Below are positions 203-33,226 of a stretch of DNA of 33,429 bases, piece after piece. The number at the start of each line of letters is the position of its first letter. The first letter of the stretch is position 1. The notes under the pieces are model-generated. The model was not told the DNA's origin. It did no database searches and was given only the letters and a program-made list of their open reading frames with translations. A program made the position numbers and the translations under genes. Origin of the DNA: Gemmatimonadota bacterium (GTDB lineage: Bacteria; Gemmatimonadota; Gemmatimonadetes; Gemmatimonadales; GWC2-71-9); assembly GCA_009692115.1 (NCBI GenBank), contig SHZU01000015.1:1-33429 (forward strand). The letters run 5' to 3'.

Positions 203-1605
203 CGGGCCCCGATCTGCCCCCGCACCGCCGCGATCATCTTGACGGGGTCGAACCCGAGGCCCTCGCGGAAGACGAGTTCGACGTTCTTGATGTCGGCGAT
301 CCGGGTCGCGGGATTGCCGGTCACCAACACCAGATCGGCCACCTTGCCGACGGCCACCGAGCCGGTCTGGTCGAAAATACCTAACGCCTTGGCGCCGTTC
401 GAGGAACCGATTTGAATGGCCTCGAGCGGGGTAAAGCCGGCCTCGACCAAGAGCTCGAGGTTCCGCTGGTTGCCGTAGCCGAACAAGGCCCCGCCGTTGC
501 CGGTCGGGTCGACGCCGGAGCCGAGCAGTCCGCCGGCCCGCGCAAATGCCAACTCGTATTTCATACCGGTCTTGAAGATCTCGAGCGGAATCCCGCCGTT
601 GCTCTCGGCAATCCGGGCCCGGGAGGTCAGGTACTCGGTCCGGGCGTCGGGCGACATGGCGTCGAGGACCCGTTGTTCGAGCGGCGGGCGGTTGGCCACG
701 AACAGTTCATACACCACCAACGTCGAGGTCAGGGCCACGTTCCGGCCGATCATGTCCTTGAAGGTGGCCATGACTTCGGGCCCGTTCACATCGAGGCCGA
801 CATAGCTCTGCATCATGTTCGGCGAGCACTGGTCGGGGGTGCGGGTCTTGTCGTAGTCGGAGTTGGCGAAAAGCCCGTGTTCAAGCGCGTCCATGCCGAG
901 TGCCACGGCTTCGCGATAGGGCACGGAGCAGAGGTGGCCCGTGAACTTGATCCCGCGCTTGTGGCCCTCGTCGATGGCCGCTTTCATAGCGGCCCGGCTG
1001 ACGCCAGTATAGAACTTGAGCCAGGACACGCCTTCTTGGGCCCAATAGGCCACGACACGGCGAGCTTCGTCCTCGTCCTTGAGCCCGACCATCGTGCTGC
1101 CGAGTCCGTTCCCTGGGCCGGTCAGATAGGGCCCGGTGATGAACAACCGGGGACCGGGAAACTGGCCGCCCTCAATGGCGCGCCGGAGATTGAGCTCGGC
1201 GTACGGGTTATTGGCGCCGGTGGTCCGGATCGTGGTGACCCCGCTGGCCAGGTACAGCAGTGGCGCCGAGAAGCTCGACTGGACCGCCCGGCCTGAGGTG
1301 GTGTAGTAGCTGTGGTCGTGGAGGCCGACCATCCCGGGCAGCAGCGACTTGCCGGTGCCGTCGATGATCCGGGCCCCGGCCGGTGCGGCGCCGGTCCCGA
1401 TCGAGGCAATCTTGCCCCCTGAAATCACCACCGTCCGGCCTTCGACCGGCGCGCCACCGACGCCGTCGATGACCCGGACGTTGGTAATCGCGACGATGGG
1501 GGCATCGACGGCCACGAATTGGGCCACCTGGGGCGACCGCTGGGCGGCGGCCATGGCGGTCGAGGACAAGGCAACGGCGGCGAGTGCAAACAGGGTTTTC
1601 GGCAT
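199..1605 (-). CDS. Exported amidohydrolase (imidazolonepropionase/prolidase-like)
   Basis: 468 aa with an N-terminal Sec signal (hydrophobic FALAAVALSSTAMAAA, cleavage near residue 21), so it acts in the periplasm or outside. The metal-dependent hydrolase pattern is complete: HxH at H96/H98 in GLHDHSYY, the carboxylatable lysine region WLKFYTG (K197), H224 in FTGHLCS, H243 in LEHGL and D366 in GSGVDPTG. The C-terminal block KVADLVLVTGNP is the usual return to the small beta domain. The family hydrolyses C-N bonds in cyclic imides, amides or X-Pro-type peptides; substrate is unknown here. The ATG at 1605 is preceded by AAAGGAG at good spacing, which fixes the start. It is the first gene of a coupled pair with the crotonase and is divergent from the DUF454 gene. 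H96/H98 are followed by Y rather than the commoner hydrophobic/glycine context, but nothing essential seems missing. Confidence 0.9.
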   Translation of the reverse strand: MPKTLFALAAVALSSTAMAAAQRSPQVAQFVAVDAPIVAITNVRVIDGVGGAPVEGRTVVISGGKIASIGTGAAPAGARIIDGTGKSLLPGMVGLHDHSYYTTSGRAVQSSFSAPLLYLASGVTTIRTTGANNPYAELNLRRAIEGGQFPGPRLFITGPYLTGPGNGLGSTMVGLKDEDEARRVVAYWAQEGVSWLKFYTGVSRAAMKAAIDEGHKRGIKFTGHLCSVPYREAVALGMDALEHGLFANSDYDKTRTPDQCSPNMMQSYVGLDVNGPEVMATFKDMIGRNVALTSTLVVYELFVANRPPLEQRVLDAMSPDARTEYLTSRARIAESNGGIPLEIFKTGMKYELAFARAGGLLGSGVDPTGNGGALFGYGNQRNLELLVEAGFTPLEAIQIGSSNGAKALGIFDQTGSVAVGKVADLVLVTGNPATRIADIKNVELVFREGLGFDPVKMIAAVRGQIGAR

Positions 1606-1678
1606 GAGGCAAGGCTCCTTTGGGGCCCGGGGGCGAACGATTATACTGGACCGACGGAACAGCTAACGAGGATCGAAC

Positions 1679-2074
1679 GTGGCGGACGAGCAATTGGCAC
1701 TGGCATCATCCCGAGGGGCCCGATGGGCCTACCTTGCCGCCGGCCACTCGTTCCTGGCCCTCGGGATTGTCGGTGCCTTCGTGCCGCTCCTGCCCACCAC
1801 GGTATTTCTGATTCTGGCCGCATCGTGCTACGCCCGGGCTTCCACCCGGTTCTACCACCGCCTGATGTCCCACCCAACCTTCGGTCCGATCGTCCGGGAC
1901 TGGCGCGAGCACCGGAGCATGACCGTCCGCGCGAAACGCCTTGCCCTCGCGATGATCGGGGTCACGTTTGCCCTGACCCTTTGGATCATCCCGCTGGTCT
2001 GGGTCCGGGTCCTTCACATCCTGATCGGGGCCGCGCTCGTCTTCTTCATCCTCCGGATCAAAACCCGGCCCTAG
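1679..2074 (+). CDS. DUF454 (YbaN-like) inner-membrane protein
   Basis: 131 aa, starting at GTG 1679 behind a GAGG-type ribosome site (AACGAGGATCGAAC). The sequence shows the DUF454 pattern. A first hydrophobic helix (about 17-38) runs into the conserved FVPLLPTTVFLILAA block, then CYARASTRFYHRLMSHPTFGPIVRDWREH, then two more hydrophobic helices (about 88-126). The family consists of small inner-membrane proteins of unknown biochemical role. Its length matches relatives. A lone TATACT at 1642-1647 is a possible -10 box with no convincing -35. The stop codon TAG (2072-2074) interlocks with the TAG of hslU on the other strand (2073-2071), so the two genes converge with no spacer at all. Confidence 0.85.
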   Translation: MADEQLALASSRGARWAYLAAGHSFLALGIVGAFVPLLPTTVFLILAASCYARASTRFYHRLMSHPTFGPIVRDWREHRSMTVRAKRLALAMIGVTFALTLWIIPLVWVRVLHILIGAALVFFILRIKTRP

Positions 2075-31636: not shown

Positions 31637-31834
31637 GATGCGAACCTGATCGTGACGCAGGTCGTCGATGGCACCAAAGGCATTCACGCCATGATGCCGA
31701 AAACGATCTTCAAACGATAAGGGGCAGCGCGAGCCCTCGGCGCGAATGCGGGGATCATCGCCCCGGTGTCTGGTGTGTTGCTCGCCGCAATCGGCGGCGG
31801 CCTGATGCTCCGGCAGCGGCGTTCCCAGCAATGA
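31637..31834 (+). pseudogene. In-frame coding remnants after the SDR, ending in a membrane anchor
   Basis: Reading on in the SDR frame past its TAG gives DANLIVTQVVDGTKGIHAMM, then PKTIFKR and a TAA (31718-31720), then GAARALGANAGIIAPVSGVL, LAAIGGGLMLRQRRSQQ and TGA. The last piece is a hydrophobic helix plus a basic tail, like the C-terminal anchor of a membrane or surface protein. No start codon or ribosome site supports an independent gene. It is probably the tail of a lost gene. The remainder to 31879 contains nothing I recognise. Confidence 0.3.
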
Positions 31835-31879
31835 TCTGATCGCATTCGAAGCCGGGGCAGGAACCGCTGCTATGGTGGC

Positions 31880-33226
31880 CTAACGTCTCGTGAGCACGTA
31901 CCCGAAACCCGCCAGCACTTGCATCCGGCCACTCTCATCGGGCTCGGCGAACCGGATTCGCTCGAGGTAGGTGCCCGGCTTGCCCTTGAACTCGTCGTTC
32001 CCGATGAACTCCAGCTCGAGCAGCGGCCGCTCGGCGGTGACCGTGTTCTCGTACACCAGCGTCTTGATGGTGACCGCCGCGGCCAGCCCACCCTCGCGGG
32101 CAACCACCCGGAACCGGAGCATCACGCTCTCATACACCCCGAGGTACGGTGCCGGATCGACCGCCGGCAGAGCCGGCGGCTCCGGCCGCTGCTGGGACCG
32201 GCCGGTCCAGACCTCGAGCAGCGGTTCGATGAGCGACGGGCCGAGGGCCATGTGCTTGTCGCAATTGGTGAGCAAGGCAACGACCCGGCCCGTGGCCTGG
32301 TGGGCATAGAGGACCGAGCTCACGCCAGGACCGCCGCCGCCGTGATGGACCAGGCCGCCGGGCAACAGCATCCAGCCCAGGCCCCAGTGGTAATCGGCCG
32401 GCAGAATCATCGCCTTGGTCGGCCGCATCATCCGCTCGGCCGACTCGCGGGACAGGATCCGGCCGCCGCCCGGACCAACGCCGCCGTTCACCATGGCGCG
32501 CCCAAAGGTCACCAGGTCGGCCGCGGACATCATCAGGGTCGCGCCGGCCGGCGCCATGCTGAGCGGGACGAACGGCCGGGTCGCCTGGACCATGGTTCCT
32601 GTCGCGGGGTCGGCAAGGTCACCGACGCTCACGCGAAACCGGGGAAGGTCGGTGAGGTCCGCGAGTGCGTGACGCATTTCGAGCGGCTCGAAGATCCGTT
32701 CCTTGACCAGCGTATACCAACTCTTGCCCCGGATCTTCTGCGCCAGGCAGCCCGCCACCACGACCGCCATGTTGCAATAGGACGGCCCCCCGCCGGGCGG
32801 ATGTAGCTGGTCCAAGTCGGCGCATCGGGCCAGTGCGTCGACCAGGCGCTCCTGGTCGGGGCCGAAGTCCGGCAGAAAAACCCCATCGATGCCGCTGGTG
32901 TGATTGAGCAGCATCCCGCAGGTGATCCGGGCGCGCGCGGCCTCGTCCCGAATCCGAAACTCGGGAAGGTGCTCGATCACCGGATCGTCCAATGAGATCA
33001 ACCCGTCGTCCACTAGCTGCATCACCAGAACCGCGTTGAAGATCTTGGTGATCGAGCCGATGTGCATCACCGTGTCGGCGGTGACGGGGTCGCCGGTGAC
33101 GCTGTTGCGGACGCCCGCCACCGCGGTGGCCAGGGCCGCGCCGTCCCATATCGCCATCGATGCGCCGGTGATACCGGCGGCGGCCCGGGCCGCCTCGAGA
33201 ATTGGATCGGTGATCGGCATGGTCAT
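31880..33226 (-). CDS. Beta-lactamase-fold serine hydrolase (class C/esterase type)
   Basis: 448 aa. ATG 33226 overlaps the stop of the upstream amidohydrolase (ATGA). The penicillin-binding-fold motifs are all present: SxxK at S58-K61 in HIGSITKIF, YxN at Y150-N152 in PSYCNMA, and the HGG-type third motif at H295-G297 in LVHHGGGGPG. The last 100 residues (PYLGVYESVMLRFRVVAREG) are the lipocalin-like C-terminal domain often found in such esterases and D-amino-acid peptidases. No signal peptide is evident (MTMPITDPILEAARAAAG), so it may be cytoplasmic. Relatives act as esterases, D-aminopeptidases or beta-lactamase-like enzymes. The amidohydrolase neighbour suggests amide or peptide breakdown rather than antibiotic resistance. 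The stop TAG lies in a CGTTAGGC octamer. Confidence 0.88.
   Translation of the reverse strand: MTMPITDPILEAARAAAGITGASMAIWDGAALATAVAGVRNSVTGDPVTADTVMHIGSITKIFNAVLVMQLVDDGLISLDDPVIEHLPEFRIRDEAARARITCGMLLNHTSGIDGVFLPDFGPDQERLVDALARCADLDQLHPPGGGPSYCNMAVVVAGCLAQKIRGKSWYTLVKERIFEPLEMRHALADLTDLPRFRVSVGDLADPATGTMVQATRPFVPLSMAPAGATLMMSAADLVTFGRAMVNGGVGPGGGRILSRESAERMMRPTKAMILPADYHWGLGWMLLPGGLVHHGGGGPGVSSVLYAHQATGRVVALLTNCDKHMALGPSLIEPLLEVWTGRSQQRPEPPALPAVDPAPYLGVYESVMLRFRVVAREGGLAAAVTIKTLVYENTVTAERPLLELEFIGNDEFKGKPGTYLERIRFAEPDESGRMQVLAGFGYVLTRR

Follow-up and report, generated by a model that had tools for sequence, protein, structure and literature searches.

The octamer CGTTAGGC is strongly over-represented in a 33,429-nucleotide contig of a Gemmatimonadota bacterium (SHZU01000015.1 of assembly GCA_009692115.1; hereafter the window) and in the genome to which the contig belongs, in genes as well as between them, and the evidence supports selection or drive acting on the octamer as a DNA word. 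The own genome (G000; 3.12 Mb, 97% complete, with the window as its contig C15) holds 568 copies in a whole-genome count, 290 forward and 278 reverse, or 1 per 5.5 kb, compared with 287 copies in total of the word with its letters reversed. Within one order of the phylum the word is patchily distributed. From this pattern we tentatively propose a self mark resembling a DNA uptake sequence (DUS), a possible reading in which uptake itself is putative. Among the matches listed in open-licence PubMed Central, no title or abstract start dealt with CGTTAGGC as a genomic word.

Enrichment of the octamer within and between genes

In a 400-kb sample of contig C1 of the own genome, CGTTAGGC was the top over-represented octamer, with 75 copies against 3.8 expected from a third-order Markov model, an expectation that falls to 2.4 once the word's own contribution is removed from the background. 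Fifty-five of these copies lie wholly inside predicted genes, where shuffling of synonymous codons gave a mean of 2.4 and a maximum of 7 in 100 runs, which places the word ~20-30 fold above both controls. The coding copies comprise 40 in the sense frame NCG-TTA-GGC (1.23 expected), 3 in the sense frame xxC-GTT-AGG-Cxx (0.22 expected) and 7 and 5 in the antisense frames (0.28 and 0.65 expected); the remaining two reading frames contain stop codons. A further 7 copies run across gene ends and 13 lie outside genes, so that the excess extends to each of the four possible frames, to both strands and to DNA between genes. The proposal of an initial annotation of the window, that the DNA word itself is under selection, is supported by counts in the 400-kb sample far above Markov and codon expectation and by an excess that reaches beyond in-frame TTA GGC pairs to the GTT-AGG frame, to antisense copies and to intergenic DNA.

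The enrichment is that of an exact word. Neighbours clearly raised in the own genome differ from it in a terminal letter (TGTTAGGC, 15 vs 2.0; CGTTAGGT, 15 vs 2.7, or 5.5 times expectation in the 400-kb sample; CGTTAGGG, 10 vs 2.8), and the classes with one, two and three mismatches reach 1.04, 0.92 and 0.98 times their expected counts. An origin by mutational conversion of a one-step neighbour was rejected, since no single-step neighbour was consistently depleted in octamer counts from the own genome and from samples of its relatives. CGTTAGGC was likewise the top octamer in samples of G215, G055, G005 and the chromosome of G110, identified as Gemmatirosa kalamazoonensis by a 100% match of 8 kb of contig C3 to NZ_CP007129.1; in a pooled sample of the G110 megaplasmids the overlapping GTTAGGCA came first and CGTTAGGC second. 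With the word removed from the background, observed and expected counts were 285 vs 1.0 in G110, 33 vs 0.5 in G055, 45 vs 1.3 in G005 and 111 vs 3.7 in G215. The one-mismatch class is raised in G110 (1.77), G215 (2.26) and G055 (1.32), as expected for mutation against drive. The favoured edge letters vary by lineage: CGTTAGGT is raised in G000, G005 and G055, and the samples of G110 and G215 hold a single copy apiece. G055 (L117-L126) further shows an excess of the related decamer CTCGTCAGGC (22 vs 1.3 in 200 kb).

Use within genes was expressed as occupancy, the share of peptide positions able to encode CGTTAGGC by synonymous choice that do carry it. For [APST]-Leu-Gly, Val-Arg-[HLPQR] and, antisense, [CGRS]-Leu-Thr and Pro-Asn-[ADEGV], occupancy was 100/414, 22/342, 12/178 and 55/111 in G110; 40/123, 4/89, 16/65 and 21/38 in G215; and 40/346, 3/197, 7/190 and 5/53 in G000. 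Pooled, sense and antisense occupancy amounted to 16 vs 23% in G110 (p 0.009), 21 vs 36% in G215 (p 0.006), 4.5 vs 5.7% in G055, 11 vs 5% in G005 (p 0.11) and 7.9 vs 4.9% in G000 (p 0.17); sense and antisense use thus follows no common strand rule across genomes. Positions within genes showed no clear terminal bias, with 27 of 83 antisense copies of G110 in the last fifth.

In the window, the 12 exact copies and two copies of CGTTAGGT counted in the initial annotation were all found (Table 1), the former against a mean of 0.53 and a largest value of 3 in dinucleotide shuffles (n = 100). The window density of 0.36/kb is twice that of the own genome (0.18/kb). Seven of the 12 copies stand in the sense frame NCG-TTA-GGC, in agreement with the many Leu-Gly readings with TTA noted before, and the other uses named there, one copy encoding Val-Arg-Pro, one lying antisense over Pro-Asn and two lying over stop codons, match the gene model or, for the stop codons, the ORF ends. 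The gene model comes from a simple codon-score caller of open reading frames (ORFs), used without annotation, that misses genes, so part of the copies counted as intergenic may be coding. A word-free stretch had also been pointed out; it is real (9.2-13.2 kb) but says little, because gaps on C1 average 5.3 kb, more than the 4.0 kb found here.

Table 1. Copies of the octamer and of its variant in the window, with gene context and reading frame
Feature	Position	Strand	Context	Reading
CGTTAGGC	4020..4027	-	hslV-type proteasome-family gene 3543-4079 (-)	NCG-TTA-GGC
CGTTAGGC	5255..5262	-	trmFO 5003-6328 (-), GIDA family by Pfam	NCG-TTA-GGC
CGTTAGGC	5678..5685	-	trmFO	NCG-TTA-GGC
CGTTAGGC	8469..8476	-	predicted gene 8157-8678 (-)	NCG-TTA-GGC
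CGTTAGGC	9218..9225	-	chorismate synthase gene 8678-9922 (-)	NCG-TTA-GGC
CGTTAGGC	13238..13245	-	outside predicted genes; overlaps stop codons of ORFs 12203-13243 (+) and 13240-15030 (-)	
CGTTAGGC	18346..18353	+	in 17871-19814 (+)	NCG-TTA-GGC
CGTTAGGC	20408..20415	-	in 19830-21083 (-)	sense xxC-GTT-AGG-Cxx, Val-Arg-Pro
CGTTAGGC	24489..24496	+	propeller-amidohydrolase gene 22847-26581 (+)	NCG-TTA-GGC
CGTTAGGC	24931..24938	-	antisense in 22847-26581 (+)	Pro-Asn on coding strand
CGTTAGGC	30503..30510	+	outside predicted genes	
CGTTAGGC	31878..31885	-	spans stop codon of gene 31880-33226 (-)	
CGTTAGGT (variant)	379..386	-		
CGTTAGGT (variant)	28370..28377	+		

Beside the octamer, the window contains two heptad tandem arrays of 4.9 copies each in opposite orientation, GCCGAGT at 6282-6315 and CTCGGCA at 8122-8155, the former at the start of TrmFO, which reads RHSALGTRHSA. 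The heptads recur at dispersed sites of the own genome: GAGTGCCGAG reaches 61 copies in 400 kb where 1.6 are expected, C1 has 16 heptad runs, 11 of them outside predicted genes, and G110 has a sister heptad, CCCGAGTCCCGA.

Strand, replicons and distribution in the phylum

Both strands are used, with 38 plus and 37 minus copies on C1 of the own genome and 227 plus and 201 minus copies in a sample of the G110 chromosome (428 copies, 720 kb, 36 bins of 20 kb). With the origin position left free, at most 57% of the G110 copies agree in polarity over any roughly balanced placement of origin and terminus (p 0.15 at the site level, p 0.63 when whole bins are flipped), and no clear replication polarity beyond chance was seen in this genome. 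The variance-to-mean ratio of copies per 20-kb bin is 1.19 in G110, 0.95 in G000, 1.69 in G055 and 1.40 in G005. Short gaps are depleted in part: those below 200 bp are too few in G110 (33 vs 48 simulated, p 0.008) and G215 (7 vs 15, p 0.006), and G000 has none below 400 bp vs 5.3 simulated (p 0.008), with no deficit below 100 bp in G110 (24 vs 24.9) or below 400 bp in G215 (26 vs 28).

The word is present on all four replicons of G. kalamazoonensis, at similar density on both megaplasmids (C3, 48 copies in 80 kb; C4, 33 in 60 kb). A 21-kb satellite record of this genome carries 18 copies. A repeat of ~6 kb occupies its two ends, and its sequence is 99.97-100% identical to chromosome bases 1-14,513 (loci L101, G110:C1, and L104, G110:C2:1-14513), so that the unit of the element is ~15 kb with 12 copies. 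The element encodes an integrase and a primase and has been described as a high-copy element, possibly a phage (PMC3974934). GC-richer bins hold more copies (r 0.66 in G110, 0.82 in G005, 0.46 in G055 and 0.30 in G000), and the word stands in a GC background of 64-73%, with the rare Leu codon TTA in most coding copies of the own genome. A 20-kb segment of G005 (L136; G005:C1:500001-520000) with 56% GC, vs 66-70%, has no copy and is probably acquired DNA or part of a mixed contig; on the same contig, copies thin out beyond ~310 kb.

Across 298 genomes of the phylum, with rates taken as counts over listed genome sizes, at least 40 copies per Mb were found in 20, all within the order of the window (172 genomes) and none among the 126 others. 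These word-rich genomes comprise G000, G001, G002, G003 and G005 of the own genus, G007 and G008 of the same family, twelve of family f2 and G042 of f3. The next highest rate is 25 per Mb (G269, 93 copies), most of the remaining 278 genomes have fewer than 40 copies in total, and the word is missing in sister genera. No excess was seen in 74 word-poor comparison loci of other bins (1.08 Mb; 3 copies vs 3.25 expected), a set that leaves out L001-L004, L050 and L066, all word-carrying. Nor did a strong octamer emerge from samples of G006 (68 kb) and G242 (22 kb), whose size is too small to rule out a dialect word there. The richest genomes are G110 (4,469 copies in 7.5 Mb) and G215 (3,754 in 4.3 Mb), with about 1 copy per 1.1-1.7 kb. 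G215 has two TrmFO genes (C33 and C21), 65 and 66% identical to the TrmFO of the window, and its bin may therefore be mixed.

The history of single sites could be followed where the window aligned to twelve relatives, five of the 12 sites having aligned relatives (4020, 5255, 5678, 8469 and 9218). The 5255 site in trmFO is kept letter for letter in all four near relatives (L001-L004, with 80-81% TrmFO identity to the window, as for members of the own genus) and in none of eight outer relatives, which mostly have CTC or CTG as Leu codon; among the relatives that cover the 4020 site, two of three near ones and none of seven outer ones keep it. The near relatives in which these two sites are kept stand at ~77% nucleotide identity. 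Conversely, L001, L002 and L003 have a common site that is absent from the window. A comparison of orthologues between C1 and G005 covered 3.1 kb of alignment with 0 sites within it. On a single-gene TrmFO tree of 30 genomes (20 word-rich, 10 word-poor) drawn from a chosen panel of 49 genomes (21 word-rich, 28 word-poor), the word-rich state requires 7 changes, at least 4 of them on well-supported branches. The deepest branches of family f2 are word-rich, which suggests an old word with repeated loss, but this has modest support, and equal clustering arose in 69 of 500 shuffled labellings.

Possible readers of the word

The pattern asks for a reader of the exact word that is indifferent to polarity and acts on every resident replicon, and that would bring each copy a benefit or a drive, less so where copies stand close together; known uptake sequences behave in this way. 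Under the uptake reading, which we hold tentatively, CGTTAGGC would be a short exact self mark on double-stranded DNA, bound by a surface receptor of the natural-transformation machinery, such that DNA of the own lineage would be imported preferentially. Copies would arise by mutation and then be kept and spread because word-bearing fragments would be taken up and recombined more often, a form of molecular drive; we infer both the competence receptor as reader and the uptake bias as force. Among the functions named in the initial annotation, uptake fits best, and segregation or Chi-like roles fare less well for lack of a clear strand bias in G110. The own genome encodes ComEC, DprA, a PilQ-like secretin (below cut-off) and two GspH-type pilin matches. 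In the panel, ComEC is found in 45 of 49 genomes, DprA over cut-off in 42, a GspH-type pilin in 39 and a PilQ-like secretin in all 49, in none over cut-off.

Several observations weigh against uptake. In the panel, word-rich and word-poor genomes cannot be told apart by their competence genes; among its 21 word-rich members, five lack a GspH match (G005, G008, G055, G162, G271), two lack ComEC (G001, G271) and three lack DprA (G002, G004, G271). No uptake receptor was found, the search being for generic GspH pilins and not for a ComP-type receptor. One-mismatch forms stand at 1.04 in both G005 and the own genome, so that the signature of gradual drive is missing in these two. Inverted pairs, which DUS often form, are scarce: among 197 gaps in G110, 4 separate opposite copies by no more than 100 bp, and the 66 gaps of G215 and 74 of G000 include none. 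Terminator pairs were rejected as being rare. Splitting the G110 sample at the midpoint of the record gives 142/103 vs 85/98 (Fisher p 0.02), a weak polarity that is weaker than that of Chi or of FtsK-orienting polar sequences (KOPS). The 12 copies on the integrated 15-kb high-copy element fit an intracellular mark at least as well. Three of the five testable window sites are not common to near relatives, 5678 being shared with 0 of 12 relatives, 8469 with 0 of 4 and 9218 with 0 of 10. Finally, no work on transformation or uptake sequences in Gemmatimonadota was found by title among the matches listed in open-licence PubMed Central.

That the word marks own DNA inside the cell, or signals recombination as Chi does, to a helicase-nuclease other than RecBCD/AddAB is in our estimate rather unlikely; CGTTAGGC would then stop degradation or load a recombinase on own DNA. 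The similar density on both G. kalamazoonensis megaplasmids and the copies on the 15-kb element speak for it, as does the scarcity of candidate nucleases. The own genome has no match to PF04257 (RecC) or PF12705, and G110 likewise lacks a PF04257 match; its one partial PF12705 match passes the family cut-off (6.6e-6, 28 bits) but lies in a frame of 430 aa, less than an AddB would need. Counting a PF12705 nuclease as strong when E falls below our own threshold of 1e-15, we found no RecC and no strong AddB-type nuclease in 18 of the 21 word-rich genomes, so that their DNA ends should be processed by some other system. Either type is present in 3 of 21 word-rich (G008, G059, G120) and 10 of 28 word-poor genomes, and the lack of both does not significantly track the word (Fisher p 0.11); weaker PF12705 matches are found in six word-rich genomes (G002, G059, G110, G120, G132, G162; 1e-8 to 3e-4). 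None of the gene families tested separates word-rich from word-poor panel genomes. Against this reading, known Chi words point along the direction of replication, an agreement that in G110 stays within chance, and in G110, G215 and G055 the word is used antisense no less than sense. The Chi-like role suggested in the initial annotation is disfavoured by the lack of a clear strand bias in G110 and by the absence of RecC or a full AddB-type nuclease from the own genome and G110. In the panel as a whole, 36 of 49 genomes have neither RecC nor a strong PF12705 nuclease, and from these profile matches DNA end processing in Gemmatimonadota looks unusual. A more specific version, which we consider unlikely, is that CGTTAGGC would be what an undescribed intracellular system for self/non-self distinction or end processing recognises, a system replacing RecBCD-Chi in Gemmatimonadota, with double-stranded, non-polar reading, such that resident replicons, mobile elements included, would need about 1 copy per kb or be degraded. 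If an intracellular reading is true, integron cassettes ending in CGTTAGGC would arrive already self-marked.

A non-polar chromosome-organising protein that binds the word across all replicons would suit per-bin counts near Poisson in G110 and G000 and the paucity of short gaps; the less even spread in G055 and G005, the lack of a candidate protein and the absence of the word from sister genera leave it decidedly unlikely. A word made or kept by a DNA methyltransferase with methyl-directed repair, functional or not, as may be imagined from highly iterated palindrome 1 (HIP1), is improbable. HIP1 of cyanobacteria recurs roughly every kb and is sparse or absent in part of the related genomes (PMC4390886, excerpt), and the density and patchiness of CGTTAGGC recall this; against it, CGTTAGGC is not palindromic, and no single-step neighbour is consistently depleted, contrary to conversion. 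The single-molecule real-time (SMRT) methylome of G. kalamazoonensis lists RGATCY, ATGCAC and CCAGN7TCA (PMC3974934), none of which matches CGTTAGGC; this list covers adenine motifs only, cytosine methylation lying outside it, and within that scope the methylation site suggested in the initial annotation finds no counterpart. A codon-pair or TTA-codon effect could draw on the predominance of NCG-TTA-GGC among the coding copies of C1 (40 of 55). Its probability is negligible, synonymous shuffles giving 2.4 vs 55 observed, with antisense and intergenic copies enriched as well, and a codon-pair origin is refuted on these grounds. TTA codons, moreover, hardly occur outside the word in G110, where 460 kb contain 125 in predicted genes, 119 of them preceding GGC and 100 within NCG-TTA-GGC.

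The letters of the word coincide with those of integron recombination sites. We take the attC core consensus to be GTTRRRY, here GTTAGGC, so that CGTTAGGC is the core plus one letter. In several word-poor family members, copies are clustered ~600 bp apart in one orientation, and L157 (G160:C5, 18 copies) and L158 (G032:C95, 24 copies) are long integron cassette arrays; the attC sites of these family relatives end in exactly CGTTAGGC, as do two of four attC-like sites near the G110 integrase, where the scan used was insensitive (it recovers 1/18 and 3/23 known array sites). A by-product of integron integrase, with the attC core dispersed by recombination, could be imagined from these sites, yet it is very improbable and largely refuted as the driver. 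The inverse core lies 40-140 bp upstream in 14 of 18 copies of L157 and 23 of 24 of L158, which served as positive controls, and the dispersed copies are without an inverse core RYYYAAC upstream (present in 1/75 on C1 of the own genome, 0/12 in the window and 5/411 in G110; controls 3-5%). Their folding energies are near those of controls; the dispersed copies are not attC sites. The own genome has no integron integrase over cut-off (best 95 bits), and integrase over cut-off does not track the word (14/21 word-rich and 15/28 word-poor panel genomes, p 0.39). One idea is that integron cassettes may be read as self DNA, a possible link behind the shared letters; no paper joining integron, attC and Gemmatimonadetes was found in open-licence PubMed Central.

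Relation to known genomic words

Compared with known systems, CGTTAGGC has the identical letters of the integron attC core, with dispersed copies that lack an inverse core partner. The segregation words KOPS are strongly skewed from origin to dif, unlike CGTTAGGC, which has no such skew in G110. The Chi words of RecBCD/AddAB are, like CGTTAGGC, asymmetric and short, and the density in the own genome resembles that of Chi in E. coli; unlike Chi, the word lacks a clear strand bias in G110 and occurs, in the own genome and G110, without RecC or a full AddB-type nuclease. If the mark is intracellular, it would point to an undescribed system in cells without RecBCD/AddAB. HIP1 and the alternate HIPs of cyanobacteria share with CGTTAGGC the iteration at about 1 per kb and the losses among relatives, and they are palindromes tied to methyltransferases (PMC4390886, excerpt), whereas CGTTAGGC is asymmetric and has no matching G. 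kalamazoonensis motif.

The DUS of Neisseriaceae and the uptake signal sequences (USS) of Pasteurellaceae are, like CGTTAGGC, short, exact and non-palindromic words with hundreds to thousands of copies, and they show no general orientation bias in the genome with unequal orientation within genes, as far as the excerpt of PMC2346458 goes. DUS dialects are lineage variants (PMC3630211, excerpt), of which the edge letters of CGTTAGGC are reminiscent, and over-representation of DUS and USS falls through the mismatched forms (PMC1939737, excerpt), a trend seen for CGTTAGGC in G110, G215 and, weakly, G055, and not in G005 or the own genome. Unlike these systems, CGTTAGGC belongs to a different phylum and is a different word, its receptor and uptake are putative, inverted pairs are rare, a mobile high-copy element is also densely marked, several families use the same word, and the own genome has no raised mismatch forms. 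To our knowledge, uptake words are established only in Neisseriaceae and Pasteurellaceae. If CGTTAGGC is one, it would be an independent case in an abundant and poorly cultured soil phylum, and its presence on donor DNA would offer a handle for bacteria that are hard to manipulate. Since word-rich and word-poor genera adjoin on one tree, spread by uptake drive as opposed to selection would then become testable.

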